34,087 bases of DNA from an uncultured Pelagibacteraceae bacterium (lineage in GTDB: Bacteria; Pseudomonadota; Alphaproteobacteria; Pelagibacterales; Pelagibacteraceae), in contig CACJWN010000012.1 in the NCBI GenBank assembly GCA_902597175.1, positions 1-34,087 of the forward strand, given 5' to 3'. Made by a program: the position numbers and the translations under genes. Below the pieces are notes generated by a model that did no database searches, was not told the DNA's origin, and saw nothing but the letters and a program-made list of their open reading frames with translations. Positions 19,924 to 27,007 of the stretch are shown piece by piece; positions within the stretch are counted from its first letter, which is position 1, and each line of letters begins with the position of its first letter.

Positions 19924-20863
19924 TTTACATATTTTTTTAGGTGCAACAGTTGCTGACGCAGCTACTAGACCTTTACACTGGGTTTATGATCCTAAAAAAT
20001 TGAAAAATTATATCAAAGGTAAGAAAGAGATAGCTTTTTTAAAAAAAAACAAAAGTCCTTTCTATTCAATAAAAACTGGAAAAGTATCTGGCTACAACGA
20101 TATAGGACAGGTTATGTTCAAGACATTAATGCAAACTAAAAAAAAATCTGAAATTTTAAAAGTTTTTAAAAGAAATATTATTTTAAATTTTGGCCCAGGC
20201 TCAGCTTATTGGAGAAACTTGAAAATTAGAAAAAAATATAAAAAGATTAAATGGAAAAAACCTTTAAATGGCCCTTGGATTCATCAAAATGTACTAGAAA
20301 CAATTCAAAATATTAAAATGAGGAAAAGTACCACTGGTGGGACTAAAGTAAACGAGTCCGATGGTTACTGTGCTGCTCTCCCTTATTATCTTTATAATAA
20401 TAATGAAAAAGATTTAAAAAGAGTAATCAAAAGCGTTGCTAATTCTAAAATAAACGAAACCTACGCTTTAGCTAAACTTAAAATTATTAGTTTAGCAAAT
20501 GATAACAAGAAAGATCCAATTCGATTTTTCTTAAGAAAATATAAAAGAAACCGATACTTCAAAGATGTAATAAATAATATTAAAAAGGTATTAAGAGCAA
20601 AAAGAGAAAATCATACAAAAACAGTAAGAAAATTTGGAAAAGCTTGCAGTTATCCTGGTACCTTTATGGGATCCATGCATGCAATGATAACTTCTAATAA
20701 TTATAAGTCAGCTATCAACAAAACTATTAAAGCTGGAGGATGTAATTGTTCTAGAGCTAATTTTGTCGGCGCTTACTTTGCTGCTCTTAAAGGATATAAA
20801 AACATTCCATCTAAATGGATAAAAAAAACACAACCTGCTAAAAATATTTTAAAATATATTTAG
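19916..20863 (+). CDS. ADP-ribosylglycohydrolase-fold protein (crystallin J1-like branch)
   Basis: All-alpha protein related to DraG/ARH enzymes, 315 aa. Seen: GATVADAATRPLHWVYDP at the N-terminus (family 'Ga..aDAlG...hw.yd') and GGCNCSRANFVGAYFAALKG near residue 275, where true ARHs have 'GGDtDT.aai.GallGA'. The metal-binding aspartates are thus changed to Cys/Asn/Ser, as in J1-crystallin-like relatives, so ADP-ribose hydrolysis is doubtful. N-terminal Asp12 of the VADA motif remains. It overlaps rlmN by 8 nt and the convergent DruA-like gene by 4 nt. Because it is coupled to rlmN I treat it as core genome, not island. Confidence 0.78.
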   Translation: MDNLHIFLGATVADAATRPLHWVYDPKKLKNYIKGKKEIAFLKKNKSPFYSIKTGKVSGYNDIGQVMFKTLMQTKKKSEILKVFKRNIILNFGPGSAYWRNLKIRKKYKKIKWKKPLNGPWIHQNVLETIQNIKMRKSTTGGTKVNESDGYCAALPYYLYNNNEKDLKRVIKSVANSKINETYALAKLKIISLANDNKKDPIRFFLRKYKRNRYFKDVINNIKKVLRAKRENHTKTVRKFGKACSYPGTFMGSMHAMITSNNYKSAINKTIKAGGCNCSRANFVGAYFAALKGYKNIPSKWIKKTQPAKNILKYI

Positions 20864-22833
20864 CTTATTTTTGAAAACAAACTTAAGTTTTTTTCTTTAT
20901 CTGGATTATTTATTAAAATTTTTTCAAATATTTTTGATAAAGATTTAGAATTGAGGTTTTCTAAGTTTTGTAACGTTTCTGTTCTAATTATCCTATTAAG
21001 GAGCCATCTTTTGCTCCAAGCTTTGGTAATCTCGTTAATCGAAGAACAATGAGAAAAATTTGAGAGTTTTTTTAAACCATATAAATATTTGATGATTTCT
21101 TTTTTATCCTTATGAAAAAAAACGTAATTTTTTCTCTTTTGACTGTGCATTAATATTTTTTCAGGAGGAAGGTTTAAAATTCTTAAGCCAATAATAATTT
21201 TTCTTATTTTATGACTATGGCCTTTACCCGAGATACTTTTCTTTTTAAATTTTTTTGCCTTTTGAGTAAGTCTATCCATTAAGTCACTTGTTTTTTGGCT
21301 TATATGATAACTACCAATACCTTCTGTTGTTCCAGCCTCGTTCCATACAAGGTTAGTTTTAAGTTTAGGAAAATCTTTTTTTAATAATTTCAATCGATTG
21401 TACTGACTACTTAACGACCCATATAAACTTGAGACAGTCAAAAAAATAATTTTAGCCGGTTTAATTAGGTTTCTTCCAGCTACCGCAGATGAAATAATAC
21501 TTACTTCTTTCTTATAATTTTCCTCATATTTTTCTAAAACGTTTTTTGATGTGGAAAGTAATGTTACAAGTTTTCCACCTATAAGTTCATTATATGGTGC
21601 TACAGCTCCACACACATTTAAATCTGCTGCTTGAGTACTATAAATATTTTGTCTCATATACTCTAAGCCGATATTAATTGCTCTTCTACCTTCGTTTGTT
21701 TGAATTAGAACTATAATAGCCTTTTTTGGATTTGTTTTGAGTTTGAAATCATTAAAAATTTTTCGTGCGTACAAAAGCTTGGATAATCTTTTAGCTCTTT
21801 TCTTTTTATACATGGGTTCTTCAGATTTTGATCTAGGCGTCTCTGCTTCTCTTCTTGTTTTAATCTTAATTTTTGTTTTCAGTTCTTTTTTTTCGTCTAA
21901 GTGCTCCTCATCTCGATATTGATCAGATAGTTTTCTAAATTTATCAATTATTTTTGCTGAGGGTTTTGAAATGTCACTTTTAGAAAGATTAAAATCATCA
22001 TATCTAGTTTCTTTAATAGTTTTGTCTATAGAGTTTAAAAGTGCCTCAGAAACCTCATTAATTCTTATATTTTTATCTCTAATCTCCTCTATCAAAGAAA
22101 TATAATTATCCCAGCGTAAGAAGTTGTTACGACCAATATTATTAAAAAATGGATTTACGAGTTGAAAAATTCCAATCACTGGTTTGTTTGGTCTAGCTCC
22201 ATTTCTTACTAAGAACGGCATAGTCCTTGCATTAGCAGTTTGATAAGGCATAGACCAAGTCAACCTGAAGTATCTCCAAATATCTAATAATCTAAGATTT
22301 GTAATACTGCATCTTTCCTCTAAAAAACAATGCTGAATTTCAGGTTTTATAACTTTATTTAATTCTTCTAATTTATCTTTTTCATTTTTTATTTTATTTA
22401 CGTTCTGGAAAATTTTCTTTAGCTCATTACCATCATCAACAAGTGTATCTATTGATTTTATTTTTGAGCCAATAGGCGGATATCTTAACTTTCTTATAAA
22501 TTTTGCATCTATAGGATTATCGATATCTGTGTGAGCTGCGTTTAAATTAGACTCTCTTGCTTTTAGTTTATCTTCAGAATTTGAACCAAATTTTGGAGGA
22601 TTGACAATGAAACCTTCTCTGCATATTTCAACTGACCAGTTAACTTCAATTAAATCCGCAAGCAAGCTACAAAACGATGCAAACTTAATTGAGTCAGTCG
22701 TTGTGCCAAGACTATCAGTTTTTCCTCTAAGTTCGGCAACTATATCAAATGAACTATCTTCTTTTTTTTCTATTATCTTATCTTTAAGATAATTTATGTC
22801 TTCTAATTTAAGATCTGGTTCAATTACAGACAT
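20860..22833 (-). CDS. DruA-family (DUF4338) protein, candidate antiphage effector
   Basis: A 657-aa protein whose middle matches the DruA/DUF4338 pattern: residues 186-242 WRYFRLTWSMPYQTANARTM, a PFLVR..ARPNKPVIGIF segment and RNNFLRWD (family 'R.l.yLvrD......piG...l.s......RD.wIGW'); residues 407-440 VCGAVAPYNELIGGKLVTLL ('l...PyN.LlGGkL.A.l'); residues 467-480 TVSSLYGSLSSQYNRL; residues 497-511 WNEAGTTEGIGSYHI. DruA is a component of type I Druantia antiphage systems, but the biochemical role of this family is poorly defined. The N-terminal 180 residues are not recognised; a Lys-rich insert (305-350) separates the two core parts. Last gene of the leftward island operon; its start is 12 nt after the GHKL stop with a weak SD. 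Confidence 0.68.
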   Translation of the reverse strand: MSVIEPDLKLEDINYLKDKIIEKKEDSSFDIVAELRGKTDSLGTTTDSIKFASFCSLLADLIEVNWSVEICREGFIVNPPKFGSNSEDKLKARESNLNAAHTDIDNPIDAKFIRKLRYPPIGSKIKSIDTLVDDGNELKKIFQNVNKIKNEKDKLEELNKVIKPEIQHCFLEERCSITNLRLLDIWRYFRLTWSMPYQTANARTMPFLVRNGARPNKPVIGIFQLVNPFFNNIGRNNFLRWDNYISLIEEIRDKNIRINEVSEALLNSIDKTIKETRYDDFNLSKSDISKPSAKIIDKFRKLSDQYRDEEHLDEKKELKTKIKIKTRREAETPRSKSEEPMYKKKRAKRLSKLLYARKIFNDFKLKTNPKKAIIVLIQTNEGRRAINIGLEYMRQNIYSTQAADLNVCGAVAPYNELIGGKLVTLLSTSKNVLEKYEENYKKEVSIISSAVAGRNLIKPAKIIFLTVSSLYGSLSSQYNRLKLLKKDFPKLKTNLVWNEAGTTEGIGSYHISQKTSDLMDRLTQKAKKFKKKSISGKGHSHKIRKIIIGLRILNLPPEKILMHSQKRKNYVFFHKDKKEIIKYLYGLKKLSNFSHCSSINEITKAWSKRWLLNRIIRTETLQNLENLNSKSLSKIFEKILINNPDKEKNLSLFSKIS

Positions 22834-22845
22834 ATTGATAAATAC

Positions 22846-24651
22846 CTAGTTGGGTAGTTTATCATCAAGTTCTTGTACATCATCTAGGTTAAACTTTTCC
22901 ACAAAAGTATCAGCTGTAACATGAAGATGTCTAGACCACTCGGTCATTTCTGTAAAATACCATCTTTTACCTTCATCAGCTGCTCCTAATGAAGACTCAC
23001 CGATTGCAGATATTAGAAGTTTTAAAGACTCTTTCATAAAATCATCACAACGCGGGTTCATCCATATCTTTTTGAAGAAATTGTGATCTTTATTTATAAA
23101 GTATTCTCTTACACCACCAACCGGGTTACATCTAAAAAATGGAGCATGTTCACCCGCTTCTTCGTAATCGAAGTTTCTTTTTGATGAAGCATATTGTGGA
23201 GTAATTTCTGCTTTAACTTTTTCTCTATCAATATCATCAGTTTTCAGAGCTTTTTTTCTTCGCTCAACCTCTAAGTCGATTACCTTTTCTAAATTTTTAG
23301 TGGCAAGTTCTTCTGTCCTTTGCTTCTTCTTTTCTTGAACGGGATCTGAACCCTCTCTATTAAGTATTGGATCAGAAGCATCGATCGCTTGTATCGCGGC
23401 ATTTGCATCTTCTAGTTTATTTATCTCTTCATTCATAAATGCTTTATTAACATCTTTATATAAGTTAGCGGCTTCGGTCATCAATTTAACCCAACCATCT
23501 GAGTTTAAAGTTTTAAAAGGCAGGTTAACGTATTGTTTATTAGTTGAAATACCAAAAGACTCATCCAAAGAAGATGGAAAATTTATTTCAATTTTATAAT
23601 TAATGTCATAAGCTTGAAATACTCTTGACTTTTTAGCTTCGCTAGGAATATGCCTCATGCAATCAATAAATCTTCCTTGTCTATAAAAAAGCAGACCATT
23701 ATGCTCTCTTAAGATTTTTTGTCTTATAGAACTGTTTCTACCTACCGGAGGGTTTTGGCCATCTTTTGATCCAAATCTAGGTGGAAACCTGGACATTCTT
23801 ACTTCTGCATTAATAGTTTTCTCTTCACCCTCTGATGAAATTTTAAAGGGCCATTGCCAAGTCTCATATTCAATTGCCTTTGTGTTATTTGGTCCACAAC
23901 TTTCAACGTGTTCACATGAACTATCTATAAATAAAGGATCTATTGGTTTAACTTGATTTCCTAAAACGCTTATTATTAAACCATCTTTAAGATTTCTCCA
24001 GTAAGACATAGAAACTCTCCAACCTAAATTATTTCTAATTGCTTCATCAGTTTTCCATGTCATTCGATCACACTTGTTCCAAACAACTATTGTCCCCGTT
24101 TTATCTTCAGAAAAATTTTCATCTAGGCACTCTTGAACAAAATCTGGAAGACTATTTGCTTCTTTTTCTAAAGGGAGTTGAGTGGTATTTAACTTTATAA
24201 GTTCATCAATATCTACTGTTATAGTTCTCCATTTATTATCCTCCTCATTCTTTGTAAAGACAGAGAACGATCTTGTTTGACTAATTGAAGATTTAGGTAA
24301 TCCATGACCAAATCTTCCATATCCTTTTCTTTTGAGAGGCGTATTAGCTGATGGTCTATGTGTTCCTCCAATTTTACACGCTGTATGTAAAAAATCTTTA
24401 GGCATACCTGTGCCATTATCAATTACTGCTAAAGACTCTGGCTGATTTGTCCCTGCCTTGTTTTTTGCAGCTATAAAAATCTTAGAAGCATTAGCTTCGT
24501 AAGCATTATCAATTATTTCATATAAAGCATTGCCTGTATTTTTATAGCCAGAGTTTCGCTCACTCTCATAAAAATTAGCTGGATCTATAAACGATCTGTC
24601 TTTTTTATTTTTTTCTGCAATTACTGTTTGTGCTTTTAGTTCTGGGTGCAT
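22846..24651 (-). CDS. GHKL (MORC/MutL/Hsp90-like) ATPase
   Basis: A 601-aa protein with a complete Bergerat ATP site: N-box YEIIDNAYEA (Glu45, Asn49), G1 VIDNGTGMP (Asp78), G2 GYGRFGHGLPKSS (110-122). It is followed by an S5-like transducer half ending HNGLLFYRQGRFIDCMR, as in prokaryotic MORC-like proteins, then a charged coiled coil (~residues 410-480) and a C-terminal domain with PFFRCNPVGGVREYFINKDH. Histidine-kinase H-box and MutL endonuclease motifs are absent. ATP-driven dimer closure on DNA or on a partner protein is the family mode. Strong AGGAG SD; 14 nt after the sigma-like gene. Prokaryotic MORC-type ATPases are known from restriction-like gene neighbourhoods, and this context fits. 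Confidence 0.85.
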   Translation of the reverse strand: MHPELKAQTVIAEKNKKDRSFIDPANFYESERNSGYKNTGNALYEIIDNAYEANASKIFIAAKNKAGTNQPESLAVIDNGTGMPKDFLHTACKIGGTHRPSANTPLKRKGYGRFGHGLPKSSISQTRSFSVFTKNEEDNKWRTITVDIDELIKLNTTQLPLEKEANSLPDFVQECLDENFSEDKTGTIVVWNKCDRMTWKTDEAIRNNLGWRVSMSYWRNLKDGLIISVLGNQVKPIDPLFIDSSCEHVESCGPNNTKAIEYETWQWPFKISSEGEEKTINAEVRMSRFPPRFGSKDGQNPPVGRNSSIRQKILREHNGLLFYRQGRFIDCMRHIPSEAKKSRVFQAYDINYKIEINFPSSLDESFGISTNKQYVNLPFKTLNSDGWVKLMTEAANLYKDVNKAFMNEEINKLEDANAAIQAIDASDPILNREGSDPVQEKKKQRTEELATKNLEKVIDLEVERRKKALKTDDIDREKVKAEITPQYASSKRNFDYEEAGEHAPFFRCNPVGGVREYFINKDHNFFKKIWMNPRCDDFMKESLKLLISAIGESSLGAADEGKRWYFTEMTEWSRHLHVTADTFVEKFNLDDVQELDDKLPN

Positions 24652-24665
24652 TTTTTCTCCTATAG

Positions 24666-25166
24666 TTATGCTGCTACAAAGTAGCTTTGTTTATCGTTAT
24701 TGGGTTTAGTAAATAAAATTACGTTATTACTATTAGGAGCAGAGGATTTCTCCTCTGCTGCTATTAATAGTTTTTCTGGGTTAAACGCTTCTTCGCATAA
24801 TGTATGCGCATATCGCGTCATAGCCTCAAGCTGTCTTTTACAACTTCTAAAATGATTAGAAATTTTAGTTCTAAAAACTTTAAAGATAAAAGTTGCAAAA
24901 CCAGTTATCTTCGATAACCCGCTTGCTTCTGGCTTATATTGTATGTTTGAAGTTAAATATTTGCTGTAAGTTTCATTCTTAAGCAAATACTCAGTTACTG
25001 AAGAAAATATATCTTCAGCGTCTTCTACACCAACGCCTCTTTTGACCATATGGCCAATCCAACCATTTCGGTAATTTTTATAAAAATCACCAATTAGTGA
25101 TCGGTACTCATTTACTGACGCTAATCTTGAAATCTGACAAGATGCATCGATACTTTCTCGTGACAT
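24666..25166 (-). CDS. Sigma-70 region-2-only protein (ECF-like, no region 4)
   Basis: A 166-aa protein. Residues ~22-60 look like sigma region 2.1-2.2 (SLIGDFYKNYRNGWIGHMVK then VEDAEDIFSSVTEYLL, compare 'A.DaeDl.Qevfl.l'), and residues ~87-112 like regions 2.3-2.4 (ITGFATFIFKVFRTKISNHF, RSCKR). After that come only ~50 residues, without a helix-turn-helix region 4. So it might bind RNA polymerase or the -10 element but not a normal -35. It has a very strong GAAGGAGG SD, and a ~115-nt leader with a hairpin and a 14-codon ORF. First gene of the GHKL-DruA operon, hence a likely regulator of it. A non-sigma helical protein cannot be excluded. Confidence 0.6.
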   Translation of the reverse strand: MSRESIDASCQISRLASVNEYRSLIGDFYKNYRNGWIGHMVKRGVGVEDAEDIFSSVTEYLLKNETYSKYLTSNIQYKPEASGLSKITGFATFIFKVFRTKISNHFRSCKRQLEAMTRYAHTLCEEAFNPEKLLIAAEEKSSAPNSNNVILFTKPNNDKQSYFVAA

Positions 25167-25189
25167 GTTTCCTCCTTCTGTTCACGACA

Positions 25190-25234
25190 TCAGAGGAACT
25201 TCACAAGTGTATCAATTACATCTTTTAGGAACAT
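25190..25234 (-). CDS. Possible 14-codon leader ORF
   Basis: In the leader of the sigma-like gene, an AGGAG Shine-Dalgarno sequence (plus 25241-25245) stands 6 nt before an ATG reading MFLKDVIDTLVKFL and a TGA stop, ending 24 nt before the sigma-like ATG. Good SD and spacing, but short ORFs like this arise by chance. It might work as a translational attenuator. Confidence 0.35.
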   Translation of the reverse strand: MFLKDVIDTLVKFL

Positions 25235-25252
25235 CGGTGGCTCCTGTTGTGC

Positions 25253-25271
25253 AAAGATCACTCTGATCTTT
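25253..25271 (-). promoter_or_regulatory. Leader hairpin
   Basis: Perfect 8-bp inverted repeat AAAGATCA / TGATCTTT with a 3-nt loop near the predicted 5' end of the sigma-GHKL-DruA transcript; could be an operator or mRNA-stabilising hairpin. Confidence 0.45.
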
Positions 25272-25275
25272 ATTT

Positions 25276-25308
25276 CTTATATATATATACTCCGGCAAAA
25301 AAAGTCAA
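25276..25308 (-). promoter_or_regulatory. Promoter of the sigma-GHKL-DruA operon with CCGGAGTATATATAT element
   Basis: On the minus strand TTGACT (plus 25303-25308), a 17-nt spacer and TATATA (25280-25285) make a strong sigma-70-like promoter. The spacer and -10 contain CCGGAGTATATATAT, which recurs at 25866-25880 in the opposite orientation. Confidence 0.6.
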
Positions 25309-25328: not shown

Positions 25329-25832
25329 CTATCTTTTGTGATGATTTACTGAAAACCAATAACAAAATGCGTTTACAAATTTACCTTTCGAGTCAGTTAT
25401 AACGTTTAAAAAACAAAGCATACAATCTTTCGTTGAATTTTTTTTATACCTCAAAACTTGTTTAAGAATCCTCTTATTTAATGGATCAGGCTTACTCCAC
25501 ACACATTTGAGTTCAACGATTAAACCGTTTTTTTTCAGTTTATCTTTTGAAAATTCAAAATCATACCTATTAGTAGTTTTTTTGTTTTTGTGAGTCCTTT
25601 GGTAATTTACAATTTGGCCTAGGTTTGAAAGTTCAAAATAACCTCTTTTAATAAGAGACTCTATTTGAAAAAAGTACCTTTTTCTTTTGTGATTGTTTAA
25701 TTTTTTAAATAAATACTTAAAAGAATATTTCGCATCTATAATAGCTTCTTTTAAACTTAAATTTCCATTCAAAGCATTAAATATGCCGTTTTGAACTACA
25801 TTTCCTATTTGTGCGTGTAATAACTTATTCAT
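25329..25832 (-). CDS. Candidate PD-(D/E)XK nuclease
   Basis: A 167-aa protein. Residues 90-129 fit the PD-(D/E)XK core: YDFEF (Asp91), a charged turn, LIVELKCVW (Glu107-Leu-Lys109) and then KQVLRYKK (Gln125-x3-Tyr129), the Q-x3-Y helix seen in many nucleases of this fold. The order beta-turn-beta(ELK)-alpha is right and the Asp-Glu spacing of 16 is acceptable. The N-terminal half is helical, basic and possibly DNA-binding. No other family seen. It is upstream of and parallel to the sigma-GHKL-DruA operon, with its own promoter and bracketed by inverted copies of the CCGGAGTATA element. The assignment rests on motifs only. Confidence 0.55.
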   Translation of the reverse strand: MNKLLHAQIGNVVQNGIFNALNGNLSLKEAIIDAKYSFKYLFKKLNNHKRKRYFFQIESLIKRGYFELSNLGQIVNYQRTHKNKKTTNRYDFEFSKDKLKKNGLIVELKCVWSKPDPLNKRILKQVLRYKKNSTKDCMLCFLNVITDSKGKFVNAFCYWFSVNHHKR

Positions 25833-25839
25833 ATTATAT

Positions 25840-25881
25840 TATACTCCAGAAAATATCTTTTATATCCGGAGTATATATATG
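25840..25881. promoter_or_regulatory. Inverted TATACTCC / GGAGTATA pair upstream of the nuclease gene
   Basis: TATACTCC (25840-25847) and GGAGTATA (25868-25875) face each other across 20 bp. The right copy extends to CCGGAGTATATATATG (25866-25881), reading rightward with TATATAT as a possible -10; the left copy reads leftward as CTGGAGTATAATATAATATG into the nuclease ATG. GGAG in the left copy could merely be the nuclease Shine-Dalgarno sequence. Likely overlapping divergent promoters or operators. Confidence 0.5.
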
Positions 25882-25904
25882 TAAGCTAGTTAAAGTTCTT
25901 TTAC

Positions 25905-25978
25905 TTAGGTGAAGAGAAACAGCGATGTCTCTTGAGGTATTATAGATTATTTAGCTTCCATACCTGTTGTCCACCTAA
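25905..25978 (+). ncRNA. Predicted three-way-junction RNA / structured leader
   Basis: Three perfect helices nest as a three-way junction: closing TTAGGTG/CACCTAA (7 bp, 25905-25911/25972-25978), hairpin 1 AAGAGA/TCTCTT (6 bp, 25912-25917/25928-25933, 10-nt loop) and hairpin 2 AGGTAT/ATACCT (6 bp, 25935-25940/25960-25965, 19-nt loop). The region is less AT-rich than its surroundings and has no ORF. A rightward TATATAT box ends ~25 nt upstream. It matches no riboswitch core I know. It could be a free small RNA or part of the leader of the downstream small-gene operon. Confidence 0.5.
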
Positions 25979-25984
25979 TCTCCT

Positions 25985-26013
25985 TTCTTAAATTTTAGCT
26001 AGCTCAATATAAT
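25985..26013 (+). promoter_or_regulatory. Possible promoter of the small-gene operon
   Basis: TATAAT (26008-26013) lies 17 nt after a weak -35 (TTCTTA) and 16 nt before the first ATG, which has an AGAGGT Shine-Dalgarno sequence. Confidence 0.4.
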
Positions 26014-26568: not shown

Positions 26569-26768
26569 ATTGGATTAAAAAAAGAACAAAAAAAAGGCTT
26601 CCAAAAGCAAAAGATTTTAAAAATATTTCTAAAGTTATGCTTGCTCATAATATCGATATTTTAAAAGACGAGCTGAGAGAAATAATTGCAGAACGAGATT
26701 TTATTTATGAAGAAAATAAAAAATTAACTAGAGAAAATCTGGAGTTGTTAAAAAGATGTTCACTTTAA
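26565..26768 (+). CDS. Small coiled-coil protein (67 aa)
   Basis: Start chosen at the ATG forming ATGA with the previous stop; an earlier in-frame ATG (26502) would overlap 67 nt. Basic N-terminus (NWIKKRTKKRLPKAKDF) followed by a coiled coil rich in Glu and Leu/Ile (LKDELREIIAERDFIYEENK, then KLTRENLELL). It resembles bZIP-like or phage scaffold-like helices only in general character. Not recognised. Confidence 0.6.
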   Translation: MNWIKKRTKKRLPKAKDFKNISKVMLAHNIDILKDELREIIAERDFIYEENKKLTRENLELLKRCSL

Positions 26769-26854
26769 TTTGGCAGCTTTTAACCAGTTTAATTTTAACA
26801 ATTATATTAGGATTTGGAATTTTTAGTATAATAAAGTTTTTTATAGGAATTTAA
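26756..26854 (+). CDS. Tiny membrane protein (32 aa)
   Basis: A 32-codon ORF overlapping the previous gene by 13 nt encodes essentially one transmembrane helix, LIWQLLTSLILTIILGFGIF plus SIIKFFIGI. The overlap fits the pattern of this operon. Single-helix peptides next to defence genes can be holin-like or type I toxins, but nothing here proves that. Confidence 0.45.
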   Translation: MFTLIWQLLTSLILTIILGFGIFSIIKFFIGI

Positions 26855-26866
26855 TTGTGAATTTAT

Positions 26867-26951
26867 GCTCAAATGGCGAAATAGTCAGACGCGACAAGTT
26901 TTACTTGTTTCACTACGGTGAGTATCAGTGCAAATCTGATTTTGAGCACCA
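26867..26951 (+). tRNA. Degenerate tRNA-Leu-like element with encoded CCA
   Basis: Cloverleaf of class II type: 7-bp acceptor GCTCAAA/TTTGAGC, discriminator A, encoded CCA; D-stem GCG/CGC with Leu-type TGGCG...AGACGCG context; long variable arm TCAC-TACG-GTGA; 5-bp T-stem ATCAG/CTGAT. Unusual: the anticodon stem ACAAG/CTTGT leaves a 5-nt loop TTTTA; forcing a 7-nt loop gives anticodon TTT, wrong for Leu. D-loop G18G19 reads GT and T-loop TTC reads TGC, removing the standard elbow contacts. So it is either a decayed tRNA or a specialised tRNA-like RNA. Confidence 0.6.
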
Positions 26952-26971
26952 TAAGATGACTATATCTTGCG

Positions 26972-26992
26972 GGGAAGGATAGATCCCTTCCC
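26972..26992 (+). terminator. Hairpin after the tRNA-like element
   Basis: GGGAAGG / CCTTCCC stem with a 7-nt loop, 20 nt after the CCA. It has an A-rich, not T-rich, tail, so it may be a processing or stability hairpin instead of a classical terminator. Confidence 0.45.
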
Positions 26993-27007
26993 TGTAAAAA
27001 ATGAATT

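Follow-up and report, generated by a model that had tools for sequence, protein, structure and literature searches.

A conserved structured RNA in a DruA-type island of SAR11 bacteria

In the window, positions 25884-26004 of the plus strand encode a conserved structured RNA, a reading to which we assign a probability of roughly 95% based on the comparison of related sequences. The window is the whole stretch of DNA that was analyzed, a 34,087-nucleotide contig (C12) from a SAR11 genome whose 19 contigs total 988,276 bases. SAR11 is one of the most numerous bacterial groups of the ocean. The RNA is undescribed, strongly supported by comparison, and linked to a DruA-type island, and it is accompanied by a promoter form that is confined to those islands in the seven genomes searched; together, RNA and promoter give a concrete entry point to how such an island is turned on, and perhaps to an RNA component of the defense machinery. 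The features are listed in Table 1.

Table 1. Positions in the window of the RNA, its helices, and the neighboring features of the island.
Feature	Position	Strand	Basis
DruA (DUF4338)	20860-22833	-	Pfam; PADLOC DruA1 1e-121
HATPase, MzaB/MutL-like	22846-24651	-	profile matches
p166, putative sigma-region-2-like protein	24666-25166	-	NCBIfam, Foldseek, VIA, each weak
p166 structured leader, hairpin over ribosome site	25167-25275	-	alignment fold
Promoter motif CCGGAGTATATA of p166	25284-25295	-	six-island scan; genome scan
p167, Cas4/Dna2/AddB-like PD-(D/E)XK nuclease fold, divergent	25329-25832	-	AF2, VIA
Promoter motif CTGGAGTATAAT of p167	25838-25849	-	six-island scan
Island promoter motif CCGGAGTATATA of the RNA	25866-25877	+	3 sites per island in 6 islands; genome scan
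Structured RNA, P1-P4, GNRA loop on P3	25884-26004	+	fold, covariation, held-out match in G690 (E 5.6e-25)
P1 5' strand (partner 25991-26004)	25884-25897	+	fold; covariation
P2 5' strand (partner 25972-25978, 7 bp)	25905-25911	+	fold; covariation
P3 hairpin (6 bp, 25912-25917/25928-25933)	25912-25933	+	fold; covariation
P4 arm (6 bp, 25935-25940/25960-25965; variable loop)	25935-25965	+	fold; covariation
P1 3' strand	25991-26004	+	fold
First ORF of variable cargo, 82 aa	26030-26278	+	other ORFs in its place in L072-L075, L081

The element is larger than the 74-nt segment, 25905-25978, in which the original prediction had placed a three-way junction. The three nested perfect helices of 7, 6, and 6 bp described there are present (P2, P3, and P4); the span was too narrow, as a 14-bp outer helix (P1) that had been missed encloses all three. 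From the outside inward, P1 is followed by an internal loop and then by the three-way junction of P2, P3, and P4. P3 is topped by a GCGA tetraloop (25922-25925) in the window, and its loop is of the GNRA type in all six rows compared (GCGA, GUGA, or GCAA, with GUGA or GCAA in two relatives). Two unpaired strands are conserved: UCCUUUCU at 25981-25988 and UUGUUGUC (GUUGUC at 25966-25971), for which the window reads CUGUUGUC and L073 carries an A in place of one G. The segment was also said to contain no open reading frame, and none runs through the 126-137-nt element in any of seven loci; each frame on both strands contains at least one stop.

The RNA lies within an island of ~6.4 kb (20864 to ~27240) between a DraG-like gene and rmuC. 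The left half of the island is read leftward (p167, p166, HATPase, and DruA), and the right half is read rightward, with small ORFs and a tRNA-like element. Within the genus, rmuC is present in 42 of 61 genomes. Among the best 30 of these 42 rmuC loci, the gap between the end of the DraG-like gene and rmuC is 23-33 nt in 16, so the insertion site is empty there; the other 14, including the window's, have no DraG-like gene within the flank examined. In all seven stretches from another SAR11 genus (L072-L077 and L081), rmuC is on the same 17-18-kb stretch as DruA, and the two genes are also near each other in the window, which suggests that DruA islands beside rmuC share an insertion hotspot. 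Based on DruA homology, it is probable that the island defends against phage.

We searched related genomes for the RNA and its neighbors. Across 169 genomes of the window's genus, full-length matches to the intergenic DNA were found only in the window's own genome and in G032, a near twin, and the same holds for p167, p166, and the 82-aa ORF; short weak DNA matches (24 of the 169 genomes were listed in all) and a match in G038 at E 0.89 were taken as chance. The 121 nt of the RNA are identical in the window and G032, so this pair is uninformative on structure. Scans of phage and viral collections with the window sequence returned nothing or three matches at E 0.4. A search for DruA in 397 genomes of the order found seven, including the window's; four are in the other SAR11 genus at 66-68% identity, and two more distant ones, L076 and L077, have 37-38% identity. 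The four islands at L072-L075 share with the window the gene order p167, p166, HATPase, DruA, with related sequence at the position of the RNA, and a model based solely on the window and G032 detected all four (E 5.6e-8 to 2.6e-5). When 300 genomes of the other genus were searched with a five-sequence model, three matches were obtained; two of the matching genomes (G302 and G479) had contributed to the model, and the third, G690, had not. This held-out match has an E value of 5.6e-25, and G690 carries the same four genes. In total, the RNA was found at the corresponding place in seven loci: the window, G032, L072-L075, and a fifth island of the other genus.

RNAalifold was applied to plain MAFFT alignments with no structure supplied, and it recovered P1, P2, P3, and P4 with 41 pairs. 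Changes on both sides that keep the pair occur in 11 of the 41 pairs with five sequences, in 12 of 41 in a plain alignment of six, and in 14 of 41 in a model-fitted alignment of seven rows, and they are present in every helix. Neither the number of such pairs nor the covariation score was reached in any of 500 shuffles, for five or for seven rows, although these shuffles ignore the relatedness of the sequences, and structures slid along the alignment gave 0-2 such pairs. The count of further pair types did not exceed that of the shuffles (89 of 500 reached it for five rows and 244 of 500 for seven). Thus, the compensatory changes that the original prediction had named as support are found in its three helices and in the outer P1; however, every such change in P2 and P3 sets the window and G032 apart from the other sequences, so these count as few events, and P2 can by inspection be aligned one column over, which leaves two double changes there. 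The other genus by itself shows double changes at 5 of 40 pairs, located in P1 and P4. In the seven-row alignment, P4 pairs in only 80% of cells. Read on the plus strand, the loci give 21 G-U cells vs 9 A-C cells.

The original prediction had argued that such helices are unlikely in random AT-rich DNA. For one sequence, this argument is weak: the 74 nt on the plus strand fold with z -1.49, and 14 of 200 shuffles fold equally well. For these 74 nt alone, the minus strand is slightly better (z -2.5 vs -1.5); inclusion of P1 and the homologues turns this order around. With 129 nt, z is -2.41 and 3 of 200 shuffles are equal, and across the island the element ranks 37th of 504 strand-windows (15 shuffles per window). 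The folding energy of one sequence is indecisive; the homologues settle the question, through the pair-keeping changes in four helices and through plus-strand z values of -2.3 to -5.5 across all seven loci, each lower than that of the minus strand. By inspection, the minimum-energy fold is the full four-helix form in five of the seven; L074 and L075 prefer another inner pairing.

A promoter motif, CYGGRGTATA, occurs exactly three times per island in the six islands scanned (18 sites; G032 was left out): upstream of p167, upstream of the RNA, and upstream of the p166 leader. The proposal of a rightward -10 box before the RNA is supported: the conserved motif precedes the RNA in all six. Across seven whole genomes, all 18 matches to the form CCGGRGTATAWA fall inside islands, although the p167 site of the window lies outside this stricter pattern; the CTGG form has six matches, one inside an island and five outside. 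The fifth base of the motif is A at all three sites in the window and L075 and G at all three in the other four islands. This split parallels the length of p166 (short, 166-174 aa, vs long, 250-262 aa), and the length of p167 divides in the same way; the ATPase of the window is nevertheless closest to that of L073 (92.7%). Since the fifth base tracks the lengths of these proteins across six islands, an island-encoded factor, p166 or p167, may read the motif. At p167, the distance from the first C of the motif to the A of the ATG is 17 nt in all six islands, and p167 is probably leaderless. By this register, transcription of the RNA is predicted to start at ~25883, adjoining P1.

The start of the next ORF is 19-31 nt 3' of P1 in all seven loci. 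Its product has 82 aa in the window and G032, 66 aa including cysteines in L072-L074, 70 aa in L075, and 52 aa in L081, and on our reading these ORFs are of four unrelated kinds (the 82-aa protein was the one searched against the loci). Relative to G032, the window has no differences in the 121 nt of the RNA and 34 differences in the 249 nt of the ORF to its right; 21 of 82 residues differ, and the changes are spread nearly evenly over codon positions (10/11/13). Next to a perfectly conserved RNA, this pattern may reflect rapid exchange or diversifying selection at a cargo boundary.

The position of the RNA between an island promoter and the next ORF points to the 5' leader of a cargo transcript, and the explanation that we place first, at slightly less than an even chance, is that the RNA is an autonomous, protein-bound leader on a transcript with exchangeable cargo. 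Under this model, the island-specific promoter would start transcription at ~25883, and the RNA would form the folded 5' end of a transcript carrying small exchangeable ORFs rightward. The conserved loop and junction of this self-contained leader domain would be the docking site for a factor acting in trans, the probable candidates being the island's own p166, p167, and ATPase. Through such binding, how stable the cargo mRNA is, or how well it is translated, would depend on the condition of the defense island. Against leader control, neither of the usual routes was seen: scans of the window and L073 showed no terminator-like stem between the RNA and the ORF, and the ribosome site is not hidden, as the presence of the RNA leaves its unpaired probability unchanged in five of seven loci and nearly so in the window (0.71 with and 0.74 without); in L073, the values are 0.53 with and 0.40 without. 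The usual switching parts not being seen, the autonomous and probably protein-bound form of leader is favored.

The original prediction had offered a small RNA or a leader sensing element. The leader part of this suggestion fits the layout, and the sensing part does not fare as well. Of the properties of a riboswitch class, the RNA has a conserved structured leader domain with compensatory pairing, but an expression platform (a terminator, in the window and L073, or masking of the ribosome site, in seven loci) was not found, and a typical riboswitch does not precede ORFs of four kinds. Ligand sensing by the RNA is therefore unsupported. A switch in which the P3 loop pairs with UUGUUGUC is likewise unsupported; this pairing was equal or better in two of seven loci (L074 and L075), was worse in L072, L073, and L081, and under a six-pair rule was not formed in the window or G032.

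A rather improbable alternative to the protein-bound leader is a trans-acting small RNA, cut or terminated after P1, that acts on another transcript, for example that of the p166 operon. The fold is self-contained, with P1 closing right at the predicted 5' end, and the RNA is linked to the p166/p167 gene set and not to one downstream ORF, both of which are in line with this idea; however, no terminator-like site was found in the stretches scanned (the window and L073). We also counted in its favor that the conserved UCCUUUCU presumably looks like the terminus of 16S rRNA. The window's UCCUUUCU is joined to the p166 leader by a match of 8 nt, ACAACAGG/CCUGUUGU, but this is near the length expected by chance for sequences of such size, and by inspection the ACAACAGG match is broken in L073 and L075. 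Pairing in trans between the RNA and the p166 leader was accordingly rejected, as a single 8-nt match in the window that is not kept in relatives.

Somewhat less probable again is that the RNA is a working part (an RNA antitoxin, scaffold, or guide) of a system made up of DruA, the ATPase, the nuclease, and the sigma-like protein, by analogy with abiF RNA. The RNA adjoins p167, p166, and HATPase in seven of seven loci, and DruA is next in six of seven; in G032, DruA is not seen because the contig ends within the HATPase gene. The RNA gave no significant match in two SAR11 DruA islands that have no p166 or p167 relatives at E<0.05 (L076 and L077) or in two DruA islands of Roseobacter plasmids (L058 and L059), where p166 found no relative; the best E values across these four were 0.23 (model R1) and 0.35 (model R2). 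This co-occurrence is what such a system would produce, but mere inheritance of the island would give the same linkage, and one of the Roseobacter islands gave no match to the RNA even though an annotated sigma-70-family protein adjoins its DruA and ATPase. Similarly, the unpaired conserved strands and the GNRA loop would suit protein binding, although, apart from the loop of P4, nothing that looks like a variable guide is evident, and the RNA is divergent from the nuclease and effector genes and not upstream of them. We consider it unlikely, a shade below this reading, that the RNA is an essential component (a cofactor, scaffold, or antitoxin) of an undescribed RNA-dependent defense system in which DruA and an MzaB/MutL-like ATPase would be joined by a Cas4-like nuclease and by a sigma-like factor that has a promoter class of its own. 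If such a system exists, the structured coding RNA of p166 and the tRNA-like RNA described below would be further RNA parts of it.

It is very improbable that the inverted repeats act as DNA, as an operator, a recombination site, or a cruciform. The element does lie at the edge between conserved and exchanged sequence, and P1 of the window contains TAGCTA, a known defense-island operator palindrome (RptR; PMC12255303). By inspection, however, TAGCTA is absent from P1 of L072-L075, and no integrase was found among the 10 proteins scanned with Pfam; the excess of G-U over A-C cells, the stronger folding of the plus strand in seven of seven loci, and the GNRA loop likewise argue for RNA. Chance folding, for which the unremarkable z of the 74 nt speaks, is barely credible given both-sided changes in four helices and the held-out match, and would be very unlikely unless the alignments are wrong.

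We next compared the RNA with known families and systems. As the original prediction had proposed, cmscan was run against Rfam 15, and no known family matched the RNA in the window or in five homologous loci: at gathering scores, the window gave 0 matches and the five loci gave nine, all tRNA and none at the RNA, and relaxed scans gave weak matches alone, far below family cut-offs. The RNA families of type III toxin-antitoxin systems and of abiF are in Rfam 15, and their models gave no match in the scans of the window and homologous loci. A literature search covering the titles and abstract openings of the papers listed, with non-PMC preprints and most subscription papers outside its scope, found none about an RNA in DruA islands and no paper combining SAR11, anti-phage, and Druantia. 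Within the scope of these searches, the RNA is a new family of a known kind in an unusual setting.

Among known leaders, the closest in form are the rpsL and rpsB motifs, which excerpts of PMC2704228 describe from 'Candidatus Pelagibacter ubique', with the rpsL motif found only there and in marine metagenomic sequence. Like the RNA here, these are SAR11 5' leaders in which a P1 stem opens into a three-stem junction; in contrast, they precede ribosomal protein genes (PMC2704228), whereas this RNA lies in a DruA island before differing small ORFs, where no Rfam family reaches its cut-off. Structured RNAs are known parts of some phage-defense systems, such as AbiF (excerpt of PMC12373285). The abiF RNA/RCd22 resembles the present RNA in being structured, non-coding, tied to defense genes, and possibly protein-binding, as far as that excerpt goes (PMC12373285); however, no Abi_2/AbiF protein was found among the 10 proteins scanned with Pfam and the eight scanned with PADLOC, and cmscan matched no RNA family.

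The glutamine riboswitch class (glnA/Downstream-peptide) has a three-way junction before small variable ORFs. The RNA shares this arrangement, but Rfam scans gave no match to this class even with relaxed cut-offs. Druantia type I comprises DruB, DruC, DruD, and DruE in addition to DruA. Of these, the island has DruA, which is matched over nearly its whole length (PADLOC 1e-121), but no DruB-DruE was found among the eight proteins scanned with PADLOC, which are part of the window's genes; the partners here are instead the MzaB/MutL-like ATPase, the Cas4-like nuclease, and the sigma-like protein. Among the papers listed, no title or opening of an abstract mentions an RNA component of Druantia.

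For p167, the predicted structure (AF2 pLDDT 81) resembles Dna2 (VIA Z 10.1) and ACE1 (Z 9.8), and Foldseek gave no match at E<=0.001. The sigma-like reading of p166 is weak: NCBIfam gave E 0.008, the predicted structure has a pLDDT of 63, and sigma factors make up most of the top 30 VIA rows with Z 5-7.4, a level that chance can give for helical folds. No Pfam family was common to two members, Foldseek gave no match at E<=0.001, and no relatives of p166 were found in 190 genomes of the class besides the window's. Distant relatives of HATPase occur in 45 plasmid records; two of these were examined, and in both the gene is beside DruA. In one, a Roseivivax plasmid (L058, 7752-10293), the HATPase relative and DruA are followed by an annotated sigma-70 family protein. 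Using tblastn, p166 had no match in the plasmid collection.

The p166 leader is a second conserved structured RNA, consisting of an AGGAGCC/GGUUCCU hairpin and a hairpin at the ribosome site; 6 of its 31 pairs have changes on both sides in six sequences. The coding RNA of p166 (24666-25166, minus strand) has z values of -4.2 to -7.5 against synonymous-codon shuffles in seven of seven loci (25 shuffles each), whereas 16 control stretches of other genes range from -1.7 to +0.9 (20 shuffles each); it is far more structured than the protein requires. A hairpin in it, GCAGAGGA-GAAA-TCCTCTGC, encodes AEEKSSA and is letter-identical in all seven loci. Third codon positions vary most in six of six pairs, so p166 is not a purely non-coding RNA, a possibility that was rejected; in the window-G032 pair, the changes by codon position number just 2/3/4. 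In each of the seven p166 proteins, a variable tail leads to a terminal Ala-Ala, which we presume is reminiscent of a proteolysis tag.

A tRNA-like RNA is located at 26857-27003 (plus strand), where a tRNA-Lys(ttt) was called at 26867-26951. It has a long variable arm and an encoded CCA followed by two hairpins, and 6 of its 43 pairs change on both sides in five sequences. Based on an exact 12-letter search, it is present in six of the seven islands with the RNA and absent from L081. At gathering scores, no Rfam tRNA match was obtained at this element in the window or in L072-L075. Its anticodon arm forms a tight hairpin with a variable loop (TTTTA, TTTAA, TAAAA, or TAAAG), which makes a role as a decoding tRNA improbable. 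Just 5' of it, an ORF (26756-26854, plus strand) encodes a hydrophobic peptide of ~32 aa, similar by inspection in L072-L075, which could be a small membrane toxin or regulator.
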